Shown piece by piece: positions 12,122 through 16,351 of a stretch of 64,000 bases of DNA (positions are counted from its first letter, which is position 1; each line of letters starts with the position of its first letter). Location: the NCBI RefSeq assembly GCF_011319465.1, contig NZ_RCMB01000013.1:1-64000 (forward strand). Direction: 5' to 3'. Below the pieces are notes generated by a model. That model ran no database searches, was not told the DNA's origin, and was given only the letters and a program-made list of their open reading frames with translations. Position numbers and translations under genes: made by a program. The DNA comes from Candidatus Nitrosotalea sp. TS (GTDB lineage: Archaea > Thermoproteota > Nitrososphaeria > Nitrososphaerales > Nitrosopumilaceae).

Positions 12122-13754
12122 TTGAATCACTTTCGAATCGTGTTGTCAGAGTTTTCTGAATCTGAAAAAGAGATCCTGCTAAAACACTTTTCCAATACAG
12201 ACGACTCTGTTTTTGCAGTAATAACACCAAGACAAGTAGATCGCGGAGCTCTGATGTCAAGATACAGTAGAACTGACAAAAGTATGCGAAAGATATTTCT
12301 TGATGAATTTCTGCAAAATGAAAATCGCGGAGAAGAATTTTACAGCAAAGTCTTGCTAGAATATGGAGATGATTCTGTTGCGGAGCTTGGCGAGGCACAA
12401 ATTGCAATAGAAGGATTATCCAATATTGCAGTAAAGAAAATCGAAGACCGTAGAATCGGATTGTCTTATCTTGAAAAATCCTCTCGATATGTAGCTTGGG
12501 ATAAAAAAGTTAATGGGGAATACAAATTTTTTAGAGACTCTGACATAATGAATTCAAAATGTGCTGACCAGTATTTGGAATCTTGTAATTTAGATTTTGA
12601 CGTTTATTCTAAAAACATACAATCAATGATATCATATATTCAGGAAAGAGAGCCGATAGAAAATCAAAAATTCAAAAATGCATCAGGAGAAGATGTTTTA
12701 TTTTCACATCTCAGAGATGAAGTAGATATCAAATCTGCTACGCGTATTTACAATGCAACAATAAAAGCAAAGTCATTAGATGTTCTACGAGGAATATTAC
12801 CTGCCGTCAACTCTTACAAATGTTGGAATTACCGGCAATGGAAGAGCATTTGAGTATCTTCTCACAGTGCTGTATTCTTCCAATCTAAAAGAAGAAAGAG
12901 AGATTGCTGCAAAGATGCATCAAGAGTTAGATACAACTATCAAGTCATTTGTAAAAAGAGGCGATGACAAACATGGTAAGGCCTTGCAAAGCTACTTGTC
13001 TGATCTAAAAGATACTGCAGTCACATTCAACAAGAAATACCTCACGCCTAAAAAGCCAAAAGATTTCCTAGTGGAAATGATTGAATTCGAATCTGAAAAG
13101 AAAGCAGAGGACAAGATAATCTCTGCGTTGCTATACGAACAGTCTTCAGGTATGTCATACCATGAAATATTATCCCAGATACAAAAGATGAACCCTGCTG
13201 CAAGAAAGAAAATTATCAAAACTTTTTCTGACCTAAGGCAGAATAGACGTCATAGACCTCCTAGAGGGTTTGAAATGACAGAGTATACATTTGATCTGCT
13301 GACTAATTTTGGCATGTTTCGTGATTTTCACAGACATCGGGTATTAACTCTAGAGAGACAAATGTTAACAACAGATCATGGATTTTCTGTTCCAGAAGAA
13401 ATTTTATCACTTGGAATAAGAAAAGACTTTGAAGATTGCATGTACAAATCAAAGGAAGTTTTTAACTTGTTAAGACAAAAAACATCAGAACAGGCACAGT
13501 ATGTAGTGAACTTTGCTTACAAATATCCTTATTTTATGAAATTGAATCTTAGAGAAGCTACTCATTTAATAGAACTAAGAACGGTTCCACAAGGACATCA
13601 GGATTACCGCAAGGTTGCTCAGGAAATGTTCAAGTCAATTAAAAAAATCCATCCAAATCTTAGTCAGATAATCAGATATGTTGATCTTAAAAAATACAAT
13701 CTTGAAAGATTGGAATCTGAAAAAAGAATCGAAGAAAAACGAAAGCGATTATAA
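12122..13754 (+). CDS. Double-domain ThyX-type thymidylate synthase (one frameshift)
   Basis: One protein of about 543 residues with two ThyX-like halves. The first half has SRYSRTD and ends in [24 protein letters not shown] (after correction). The second half carries the flavin/dUMP signature [12 protein letters not shown] and [16 protein letters not shown]. ThyX methylates dUMP using FAD and methylene-tetrahydrofolate. The break is an extra C at 12804-12805; removing it joins the halves seamlessly. The start is TTG at 12122 after TTATAATTGAA. The two-domain form is typical of thaumarchaea; which half is catalytic is inferred to be the second. Confidence 0.85.
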
Positions 13755-13777
13755 AAAAATCCTTGTAGAGTAAACAT

Positions 13778-13868
13778 TCAATCAATCTTAATTGAACCAC
13801 CGGTGGGATCAAGTTCACACCTTTTTGGTTCCAATTTATGGCTTTCTATCAATTGAGAGAATTTTCAT
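13778..13868 (-). CDS. Possible microprotein overlapping upstream stop (frame broken)
   Basis: An ATG at 13868 overlaps the stop of the membrane-protein gene (ATGA). The direct frame stops after ten codons. Removing one A from the AAAA run right after the start yields 29 residues with no stop, beginning MKFSQLIESHKLEP and ending GGSIKID at TGA 13778-13780. The length of 91 bases fits the 3n+1 pattern of other indel-broken genes here. I do not recognise it. It is one unverified small frame, so confidence is low. Confidence 0.3.
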
Positions 13869-14347
13869 TGCAGTATTCTTCCTATGTTTTTTCGCAATAC
13901 TACCATGCCCCAAGTAATCGAGCTGATTAGTACTGCATCAGGTACAACCAACCACAATGGACTTCTGACTATATTGTGCATTATCATCTCAGTGTTTGTC
14001 ATCGGACGCATAATTCTAGAATTTGTTGCCAGTGTTACATCAAGAGAAAGTGTGTATACTGGGTATAATACAATATTTGATATATACAGACCTGCGAGGA
14101 CTAGAACAATTATTACACTTTTCTTGGGGGAATAAAATGCAGATATTACAACGATAGCTGCAATACCAATACTTGCAGCCATACTAAAGAGAAATGTTAT
14201 GCCCATCTGGTTTTCACAGATTGTATGAAGCATACTGTAATTCCTTGGTTGGTCACATGACAGGAAAAAATTAGATTGAATGAAAAGAAGATCAATTGCA
14301 CAAAAGCAAGAGATTGCAATGATTATGTATTTGGGTAAAGTTTTCAC
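13865..14347 (-). CDS. Four-TM membrane protein, unknown
   Basis: A 160-residue hydrophobic protein with four predicted membrane helices (about residues 7-25, 48-70, 78-98 and 130-150). Two cysteines (C31, C44) lie in the first loop and could form a disulfide. I do not recognise a family; it is not VKOR-like beyond the helix number. The start is GTG at 14345-14347, about 29 bases after TTTTTTAAACC, a good TATA box. That promoter is part of a 90 bp element repeated at 15232-15322, where a second frame beginning MKTL remains. Confidence 0.68.
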   Translation of the reverse strand: MKTLPKYIIIAISCFCAIDLLFIQSNFFLSCDQPRNYSMLHTICENQMGITFLFSMAASIGIAAIVVISAFYSPKKSVIIVLVLAGLYISNIVLYPVYTLSLDVTLATNSRIMRPMTNTEMIMHNIVRSPLWLVVPDAVLISSITWGMVVLRKNIGRILQ

Positions 14348-14429
14348 ACTTGACTAGTGCGGTACAAGCGTGGTTTAAAAAAGTGGCGTAACATTCTTCC
14401 AGTTTTTGCAACCAGTTGCAATCAGATTT
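14339..14429 (-). repeat. 90 bp promoter-containing direct repeat, copy 1
   Basis: This copy and 15232-15322 align without gaps over about 91 bases with roughly 13 differences. The shared parts include CTTGACTAGTGCGGTACAA, TTTAAAAAAGTGGCGTAACA and TTTTTGCAACCAGTTGCA. On the minus strand it supplies palindrome, TATA box and the first codons of the membrane-protein gene. Both copies have the same orientation. The conserved part spans promoter and start codon only, as expected from a duplicated gene whose second copy lost its coding part. Confidence 0.85.
14407..14420. promoter_or_regulatory. Palindrome TGCAACCAGTTGCA (probable operator)
   Basis: Perfect inverted repeat TGCAAC-CA-GTTGCA about 30 bases upstream of the TATA box of the membrane-protein gene. 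The identical palindrome recurs at 15300-15313 while the surrounding bases differ. A winged-helix regulator is encoded just beside it at 14475-14804, so binding by that protein is a reasonable guess. Confidence 0.55.
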
Positions 14430-14474
14430 TTAGCCAGCTCAAAAGTTTTGTTAATTTACTCATTTCTTAAGATT

Positions 14475-14804
14475 TTAGACTCTTATGGCTTTGGAATGTT
14501 TTTTTGATTCAGACATGCGCTCCATTATCATCTTGCCCAGTGCCGAGTCTAACGATATTACTTGTTTAACTATTACGTTATCTCTATTCAATTTGAATAA
14601 TGTCGTATTGCCGAATTTTCTTGCTGGAATGACTACCTTCAACTGTTCCATATCTGGCCATACCTTGTATAGAGTTGTTTTTGACATTCCGGTGCTCTCC
14701 AAGATCTCTTTTTTAGAATAGTCGCTTCTGTTATCTAGGAAAAAATCAATAATCCGAAGTTGCGGTGTATCTCCGAGATATCTTATCAGTAATGTTGTAT
14801 CCAT
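14475..14804 (-). CDS. Winged-helix transcriptional regulator, 109 aa
   Basis: A small single-domain winged-helix protein: IIDFFLDNRSDYSKKEI forms helices 1-2, GMSKTTLYKVWPDMEQL is the recognition helix region (about residues 39-55), and the wing follows (FGNTTLFKLN). Thaumarchaea carry many such one-domain regulators. No ligand domain is present. It lies between the two copies of the promoter/palindrome element and diverges from the 14864 gene across a shared 59-base A/T-rich promoter. Target is unknown. Confidence 0.82.
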   Translation of the reverse strand: MDTTLLIRYLGDTPQLRIIDFFLDNRSDYSKKEILESTGMSKTTLYKVWPDMEQLKVVIPARKFGNTTLFKLNRDNVIVKQVISLDSALGKMIMERMSESKKHSKAIRV

Positions 14805-14863
14805 ACATTATTTTGTGCGTATAAAGTATTTATTTGTGTCTACCAAAGGTACTATAACTGAAC

Positions 14864-15166
14864 TTGTCTGAATTTACTGATGAAGAAATAATGGCGCGCC
14901 TAGTTTACAAGCTTTACAGGAGAGGCAATTGGGGTGAGAGTCACACTAGTTTTGAGAACCTCAAAAAAGGATTTAATCAAAGAAATTTAGGAAAAAAGGG
15001 TTTTAAAAGAGTCGATAAAATCGGAGAAAAAATGATCAAAGATGGTCTACTACATCCAAAATCAACAAAATATGGTCTTGAGATTAGTTTGGAATATACA
15101 CGAAAAAACGAATTGATTGCATTGATTAAGAAAATTTTTCCAGATGAATATCACGATGACATTTAA
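14864..15166 (+). CDS. Hypothetical basic protein, 100 aa
   Basis: I do not recognise this protein. It is basic and mostly helical, with NLKKGFNQRNLGKKGFKRVD followed by MIKDGLLHPKST.YGLEISL, which resembles the recognition helix plus wing of a small winged-helix protein. The start is TTG at 14864. It diverges from the winged-helix gene and ends at the remnant beside promoter copy 2, so the pair sits as a cassette between the repeats. Confidence 0.62.
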   Translation: MSEFTDEEIMARLVYKLYRRGNWGESHTSFENLKKGFNQRNLGKKGFKRVDKIGEKMIKDGLLHPKSTKYGLEISLEYTRKNELIALIKKIFPDEYHDDI

Positions 15167-15240
15167 CCACCAGAGGTATTTCGAATGCAGAATTCTGGTC
15201 TGATGCATGAATTAGTTATTGCAAGATGTAGAGTTTTCAT
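15163..15240 (-). pseudogene. Remnant 5' end behind promoter copy 2
   Basis: Directly after repeat copy 2 a 25-codon frame starts MKTLH, matching the MKTLP start of the membrane protein behind copy 1, then loses all similarity and stops. It overlaps the 3' end of the convergent 14864 gene. The simplest reading is a duplicated gene reduced to its promoter and first codons. A short RNA or leader peptide from this promoter is the alternative. Confidence 0.5.
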
Positions 15241-15322
15241 GCTTGACTAGTGCGGTACAACCATGCTTTAAAAAAGTGGCGTAACAGTCTTCTGTTTTTT
15301 GCAACCAGTTGCAGCTAGATTT
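15232..15322 (-). repeat. 90 bp promoter-containing direct repeat, copy 2
   Basis: Second copy of the element at 14339-14429, same orientation, starting 4 bases downstream of the FEN-1 stop codon. The TATA run (TTTAAAAAAG), the CTTGACTAGTGCGGTAC block and the TGCAACCAGTTGCA palindrome (15300-15313) are all kept, although only a 25-codon remnant follows. The retained promoter parts suggest it may still be active. Confidence 0.85.
15300..15313. promoter_or_regulatory. Palindrome TGCAACCAGTTGCA, second site
   Basis: Identical to the palindrome at 14407-14420 and at the same distance from its TATA box. Flanking bases differ between copies, so the palindrome itself seems to be kept. Confidence 0.55.
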
Positions 15323-15325
15323 CAA

Positions 15326-16351
15326 TCAGTTCATCCACTGTTCTAGATTGTGACTTTTCTTTTCTACTGACTTTTTCAACCTGTTCAATGATGTCCCTAC
15401 TCTATCAATTGAAAAATTTCTCTCCCTTGTGAGATAATCTATTATGCCTTGATAGTCAACATTTCCAAATTTTAGCTCAGAAACGGTCGCGACTTTTGGA
15501 TTCAGAAATATATCCCTTATCTGCTTGTAGTCAATTTTGTCTAGTTTTTCTTGAATTTGCGGTATCTCCTCTAATCTGCCGTGTTGTTTTATGGCCTTCA
15601 GGGCAGTCTTTGGTCCCTACCCTCTCAAATCCATCAGGATTAAAGTCAGTGCCAATCAGTATTCCAACATCCACTAATTGCTCCCGTGTTATGCCAGGCT
15701 ATCCAAGGTTTTGACCAGATCTATAATTTCAGGTTCCACTTCTATTGTAGTATTTCGGTTAGGCAATTTTCTTTTGCCACTATTTGTAAAATTTCGTACA
15801 AGCTTCTTTGCGCCAAATAAGAGCGAGTCAAAATCCTGACTTGCAGATACGTGTGCCTGTCCAGTCATAGTCATGTGAGCTGCAGTAGCCTCTCCTTCCG
15901 AAGGGGCATTGACAGATGGGATTCCAAATAGGCTTAGCAGTCTTTTAGAATCCTCAACCATCTCATCCCTTAGAATTGATGTTTGTTGAGCATACTTTTT
16001 TGCATCTTCATATCTTCCTTGGCTAATCGCATTTTCATATTTTATAGTAGCTTCTTTTTTGATCTGCTTTCTTCGTTCAATCTCTGCCGATTTTAGAGAC
16101 GGGGGCTTTCCGTCAAACACATAAACTGGTTTTATCCCAAGAGACAGGAAATTGATATTTCTGTAAAATAAGCCAGTGATATGACTTGTTATTTTTCCAC
16201 TATAGTCAGTCAAAGGTAAGCCATCTGGTCCGCGAATAATTGACAGAAATTGATAAATTGCATTGTAGGCATCTATTGCGACAATTTTGGATGCAAAAGA
16301 TTCTAGGTTAGTCTTTTCTCTAACACATAGTGCTTTAAGATCTAAACCCAT
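15326..16351 (-). CDS. fen: Flap endonuclease FEN-1 (two frameshifts)
   Basis: A full-length FEN-1 of about 341 residues that cuts 5' flaps in replication and repair. The N-domain ([21 protein letters not shown]), the I-domain acids ([23 protein letters not shown]) and the H3TH region ([20 protein letters not shown], then [11 protein letters not shown]) are visible. Two breaks split it: a missing base at 15694-15695 and an extra C at 15615-15617. Correcting both gives an unbroken frame to TGA 15326-15328. The C-terminal tail (NLEQWMN) is a weak match to the PCNA-binding box. Opposite one-base errors point to sequencing, not decay. Confidence 0.92.

Follow-up and report, generated by a model that had tools for sequence, protein, structure and literature searches.

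Organization of the FEN-1/ThyX junction

The window, meaning the whole 64-kb stretch of DNA that was analysed, lies on contig 6 of a 1.54-Mb draft genome (MAG, 71% complete). CdvA, archaeal RNase P, and the relatives of the genome assign it to the ammonia-oxidising-type Nitrososphaeria. An Rfam search of the window returned RNase P and two tRNAs only, with no curated RNA at the two repeats, W1 and W2, that lie between the convergent ThyX and FEN-1 genes. The features of this interval are as follows.

12122-13754, plus strand: ThyX, left neighbour (PF02511; two overlapping ORFs; stop codon at 13752-13754)
13755-15325: inserted block of 1,571 bp, missing at the same FEN-1/ThyX junction of close relatives (6-13 bp)
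13865-14347, minus strand: 160-aa membrane-type protein (MKTLPKYIIIAISCFCAIDLLF...), GTG start 43 nt after the W1 promoter core
14335-14429, minus strand: W1 promoter-leader module, core TACGCCACTTTTTTAAA at 14374-14390, start codon at 14345-14347
14475-14804, minus strand: HTH, 109-aa predicted winged-helix protein with a long C-terminal helix
14824-14869, plus strand: predicted bidirectional promoter/operator AAGTATTTATTTGTGTCTACCAAAGGTACTATAACTGAACTTGTCT between HTH and p100, conserved
14864-15166, plus strand: p100, 100-aa predicted winged-helix protein
15163-15240, minus strand: 25-codon ORF MKTLHLAITNSCIRPEFCIRNTSGG, headed by W2 and ending against the 3' end of p100
15228-15322, minus strand: W2 promoter-leader module, core at 15267-15283, start codon at 15238-15240
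15324-15340, minus strand: 17-mer CAGTGGATGAACTGATT, the last FEN-1 codons here (..QWMN, stop)
15326-16351, minus strand: FEN-1, right neighbour, C-terminus LEQWMN

HTH and p100 are divergent, and both lie inside the W1-W2 interval. The direct repeats that a first-pass annotation had placed around this pair are real, at 95 bp rather than 90 bp (14335-14429 and 15228-15322). Its assignment of one copy to a membrane protein and the other to a 25-codon remnant agrees with the arrangement of the sequence, in which W1 leads into the 160-aa gene and W2 into the ORF at 15163-15240. The 160-aa protein is hydrophobic, and among 101 genomes it has homologues in G026 (49%) and G001 (35%) only; the G001 homologue sits in a row of module genes on contig 144.

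The stop-to-stop gap between FEN-1 and ThyX is 10, 6, 11, 13, and 6 bp in G020, G026, G034, G029, and G030, and 99, 215, and 25 bp in G008, G001, and G062; in the window it is 1,571 bp. The first-pass annotation had asked whether relatives keep one repeat at this site, and none does: the 6-13-bp junctions of five close relatives, all of those in which both genes are visible, contain neither a module nor a leftover repeat. The end of ThyX also differs, reading KRL here and KRLR in the relatives. From the short junctions and the altered ThyX end we conclude, by sequence comparison, that the 1.57-kb block as a whole, beyond its repeat-to-repeat part, is new at this FEN-1/ThyX junction.

ThyX contains one frame break, near 12780-12853, and FEN-1 contains two, near 15615 and 15690. 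Because FEN-1 is single-copy here, consensus indel errors in the assembly are the likely source of these breaks, which may instead be real lesions. In a 71% complete MAG with frame breaks in both genes, small ORFs need cautious reading.

A promoter-leader module dispersed through the genus

W1 and W2, 893 bp apart, align without gaps over 95 bp with 82 identities (86%; E = 1.4e-26 in a search within the genome), a match far beyond chance. The 95-bp sequence was matched in 23 of 101 related genomes, every one of the same genus. The element had been taken for a two-copy boundary of a cassette, a description that does not hold: the exact core TACGCCACTTTTTTAAA occurs six times in the genome, each time with an ORF start shortly downstream. 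Alignment of 28 copies gave the consensus AAAACTAGAAGAATTCTACGCCACTTTTTTAAACCATGCTTGTACCGTAC...ATGAAAACTCTACA.CTT.CAATAATTGTA. R1, a sequence-only model of the module made from an alignment of copies, matches 36 of the 37 genus genomes, with copy numbers from 2 to at least 69 per genome, which are lower bounds because 71 candidates were scored in each. In 24 genomes of other families it yielded a single marginal match (E 0.008). The genome search for the repeat that had been suggested at the outset thus uncovered a genus-wide family essentially missing from 24 genomes outside the genus.

The module consists, in order, of an upstream tract, a BRE-like TACGCCAC, and the TATA box TTTTTTAAA, followed by a conserved spacer (GTACCGTAC...); its start codon, about 43 nt past the core, leads directly into signal-peptide codons (MKTLHLAII...). 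At 46 of the 50 core sites read, an in-frame start lies 40-46 nt past the core, at exactly 43 nt in 31 cases, and 41 of these 46 sites continue into a hydrophobic N-terminus. Many genes of a single class therefore have this element upstream at a constant distance, the pattern of a co-regulated promoter family, and the earlier reading of the repeat as a promoter element is borne out. As judged from these alignments, W1 and W2 are members of a dispersed promoter, start-codon, and signal-peptide module of the genus that stands before genes for secreted or membrane proteins. Given the usual archaeal spacing between TATA box and start site, the distances suggest that module mRNAs are nearly leaderless. 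The start-codon segment also recurs without the promoter inside operons (G001 contig 144). The proteins that follow the module are not claimed to be mutually unrelated, since blastp places 35 of the 41 mature parts together in a single loose cluster.

Islands of module-driven secreted-protein genes, with many promoter copies in tens of kilobases, were observed in several genomes (G001:C144:1-17000; G003:C91; G025:C295; G035:C1:528000-572000). A thioredoxin-domain (YyaL-like) gene with three secreted-protein genes forms a near-identical block at C4:120500-129500 and C5:20400-25400, which may be a duplication or strain variants binned together. A literature search of open-licence texts found no description of the module or of the HTH/p100 pair.

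Within its own genome, W2 best matches a third copy, located on contig 4 (126722-126852; 130 aligned columns), with a score of 132, above the 125 of W2 with W1. By these scores W1 and W2 do not form a closest pair. The match between W2 and the contig-4 copy extends 5' into CAGTGGATGAACTGATT; this sequence ends FEN-1 in the window, and on contig 4 it lies 5' of the module (C4:126722-126738). This 17-mer was considered as a widespread element and rejected, the 37 genomes containing it exactly at these two places only, both in this genome. The FEN-1 C-terminus reads LEQWMN here and LEQWFK or similar in relatives; the altered residue falls in what we take to be the sliding-clamp-binding tail. On the simplest reading of these sequences, the FEN-1 junction and contig 4 share a copied 5' segment, the arrival of which replaced the last FEN-1 codons; copying may also have gone in the opposite direction. 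The 25-codon ORF after W2 begins with the module's codons and continues into sequence that matches nothing, and is probably the stump of a lost secreted-protein gene.

These relationships bear on the earlier suggestion of a gene duplication, in which one module gene would have been duplicated locally in tandem to give W1 and W2, and the two copies separated later by HTH/p100. Their common orientation, their shared TTGCAACTGGTTGCA tract, and the same-strand rows of module genes elsewhere (G001 contig 144) fit such an origin. Against it, W2 has the longer and higher-scoring match to the contig-4 copy, a similar upstream tract is also present in another species (G018), and there are no recognisable remains of the W1 gene after W2. 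We regard tandem duplication at the junction as possible, though unlikely.

The HTH/p100 pair and its predicted operator

Both proteins of the pair are predicted to adopt winged-helix folds (pLDDT 90.0 for p100; 89.4 for HTH, with a long C-terminal helix), and Foldseek returned only generic winged-helix matches for either (best E 1e-3 to 1e-2). The HTH of the window had no family match above curated cut-offs; its sequence matches were weak and mixed, including one to HTH_7 that covers the DNA-binding part only, and agreement with MarR/ArsR is by fold alone. The 100-aa protein, listed as unknown in the first-pass annotation, now has a confident winged-helix model and is still without a convincing match in Pfam, NCBIfam, PADLOC, or PHROGs. 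A known defence or phage family for p100 was considered and is not supported by PADLOC or PHROGs, and a viral origin was likewise set aside, with no relative on a viral contig and only weak matches in a BFVD fold search.

MAGs with the labels Nitrososphaeria/Thaumarchaeota, Bathyarchaeota, Altiarchaeales, Euryarchaeota, Brockarchaeota, and Diapherotrites carry homologues of p100; among the genomes sampled from the phylum 38 of 300 have one, and in the genus 14 of 37. HTH is head-to-head with p100 at 25/25 named loci, 28/30 loci of the phylum sample, and 25/26 loci of relatives, a total of 78/81 in three sets that overlap in some genomes. Two predicted DNA-binding proteins are thus encoded head-to-head in a layout kept across archaeal phyla. 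The genes around the pair vary, the commonest neighbour family being present at 5 of 79 loci, which ruled out a constant neighbour as a clue to function. Within the genus the pair is usually found without a module nearby; among the loci tested, a module lies within ~500 bp only at G000, G004, and G005. From this distribution of sequences, the pair is not a recent invention, though its position here is new. The earlier idea of a recent mobile or duplicated cassette is accordingly retained for the position and abandoned for the pair itself, whose conservation across archaeal phyla was what the first-pass annotation had said would speak against it.

Among individual loci, L183 (G079:C28) has an HTH with a strong operator match and no detected p100, possibly as a decayed pair or a lone regulator. 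L204, where a 3.1-kb contig carries the pair, comes from a MAG with the label Chloroflexota and is likely misbinned. VapBC-, RelE-, or AbiE-like genes at times adjoin HTH/p100 loci (L149, L152, L153, L154, L181, and L182, by eye from sequence starts).

The 46-bp intergenic promoter/operator predicted between HTH and p100 is conserved at most pair loci, across lineages, with the consensus AGTATTTAAATnTnAACTTnYAAAGGTAYYATAAGTGAACTTATG. A first operator matrix contained the window's own copy and was dropped as a held-out test. The matrix used was trained on 35 sites from outside the genus, included no genus pair, and drew no site from 19 of the 54 non-genus pairs; with it, the window site scored 29.7 bits, versus 4.0 for the next best of ~128,000 positions in the 64 kb. 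In a search of 101 genomes with the operator model R2, 18 matches were obtained at E <= 1e-7, and coordinate comparison placed all 18 at HTH/p100 loci; matches weaker than 1e-4 were taken as background. Because all strong operator matches are at pairs, the pair appears to be autoregulated without a detected wider regulon, among the candidates scored and under strict filters that a weaker or differently built regulon would escape. We infer that HTH/p100 is a self-regulating unit, with no other target detected. The self-regulation proposed in the first-pass annotation is thus very likely, as judged by an operator that is conserved and private to the pair.

The operator motif repeats at a spacing of 22-24 bp (mean self-identity 0.52 at shift 23 vs 0.29 shuffled), and inverted-repeat arms surround its second copy (0.64 vs 0.30 mean). 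The window's own tandem-repeat signal is weaker, at 0.35-0.40 for shifts 22-23. Part of the intergenic conservation could reflect the core promoter alone. A second HTH subfamily (PLESVFPGSTSKILDF; L057, L058, L071, L073, L075, and L076) has a different palindrome, ~TTATGTAAnTnATTACATAA, in the same intergenic place, a pattern that co-evolution of operator and protein would produce.

An addiction (toxin-antitoxin-like) or selfish module, in which one protein is harmful and the other restrains it, would account for a conserved two-gene unit that is patchy (38/300 phylum genomes), has several copies in some genomes, changes its neighbours (5/79 loci for the commonest family), and occasionally has RelE-, VapBC-, or AbiE-like genes alongside (by eye). 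The head-to-head layout is nevertheless unlike the operon in which such genes usually lie, each protein has the look of a plain DNA-binding domain, and p100 has no PADLOC match. As to type II toxin-antitoxin systems in particular, p100 belongs to no Pfam, NCBIfam, or PADLOC family, and the genes are divergent, not co-directional. We therefore consider an addiction module doubtful. We regard as possible, though unlikely, a description of HTH/p100 as a stand-alone two-protein switch, selfish or addiction-like, that would have spread through Archaea with its own operator as sole DNA target and with subfamily-specific operators.

Two probably independent elements at one locus

The reading we prefer, and consider probable, is that two independent things meet at the junction: promoter-leader modules of the genus and an old archaeal HTH/p100 switch pair. 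As many near-identical module copies exist, 5' ends could be exchanged or duplicated between loci, and the FEN-1 and contig-4 copies share what may be such a segment. Within the pair, one TATA element would be placed to serve both genes, with one of two tandem operator-like repeats, 22-24 bp apart, lying over it and the other over the expected p100 start site. Binding at these intergenic repeats by HTH, p100, or both probably represses the pair, which would create a closed autoregulatory or mutually repressing switch. The pair would move as a unit, and in this lineage it lies between two module genes, within the block that the FEN-1/ThyX junction has newly acquired. W2 is now directed antisense through p100 and then sense into HTH; speculatively, its transcription could feed HTH expression and would couple the pair to a secreted-protein promoter.

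The block might instead be one mobile or recombination cassette ended by the two 95-bp repeats and capable of excision or circularisation. The pair does have direct repeats, 86% identical, on both sides, and the block is missing from the junction in relatives, but no relative with an empty junction retains one repeat. Moreover, the repeats are present at many unrelated genes and are not unique to the ends, the pair is found at many loci that lack them (a module within ~500 bp only in G000, G004, and G005 among the genus loci tested), the inserted block reaches past them to take in the 160-aa gene, no integrase or transposase match was found among the block ORFs, and no viral relatives of p100 were found. 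Excision at the repeats is thus improbable. What persists of the recombination-prone cassette in the first-pass annotation is a shuffling of promoter modules; as cassette ends the repeats do not serve, being a genus-wide family. It is equally improbable that HTH/p100 regulates a promoter-leader regulon and sits beside two of its targets: the pair adjoins a module in G000, G005, and G004, above the expectation from module density by a rough post hoc estimate, but modules occur in 36 of 37 genus genomes versus 14 for p100, p100 occurs in many families without the module, and the pair operator is unlike the module core TACGCCACTTTTTTAAA, with no strong operator match at modules.

Each of the two elements has a wider bearing. 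Promoters normally diverge fast, which makes it unusual that a 46-bp control region is recognisable from Nitrososphaeria to Bathyarchaeota and Altiarchaeales together with the same two proteins. The pair is proposed as an archaeal regulatory switch that is compact and open to testing, with proteins that have no family name in the libraries searched. A promoter-plus-signal-peptide module present in tens of copies per genome suggests that this one genus controls its surface proteins in a coordinated way, and the module family illustrates how copies of gene 5' ends can pass from one locus to another.

In switches of the phage CI/Cro type, two divergent DNA-binding proteins are encoded around shared operators. 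The layout of HTH/p100 is alike; the folds differ, there is no prophage context here, and mutual repression of the pair is a proposal only. In Foldseek comparisons the pair resembles by fold the small archaeal winged-helix proteins SSV1 F-93, Sso10a-2, and pNOB8 AspA, with a MarR/SmtB fold for HTH, yet the matches are weak (E 1e-3 to 1e-2) and define no common sequence family. In Pyrococcus furiosus, a near-symmetric TATA fires both ways from start sites 49 bp apart (PMC6640164), and the HTH and p100 start codons are likewise ~60 bp apart around one TATA. The second product in P. furiosus is mostly antisense RNA (PMC6640164), whereas HTH and p100 are both protein genes with operator-like repeats. 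The closest described arrangement is that of C68 and orf60 in a Sulfolobus plasmid-virus, where the gene of a small DNA-binding protein is divergent from that of a second one and C68 binds between its own gene and orf60 at two sites, one overlapping the BRE (PMC5569661). That pair belongs to a plasmid-virus, whereas no viral relative was found here; and C68 is of the swapped-hairpin type and orf60 is homologous to CopG, whereas HTH and p100 are both predicted winged-helix proteins, encoded on the chromosome, and conserved together with their operator across phyla.
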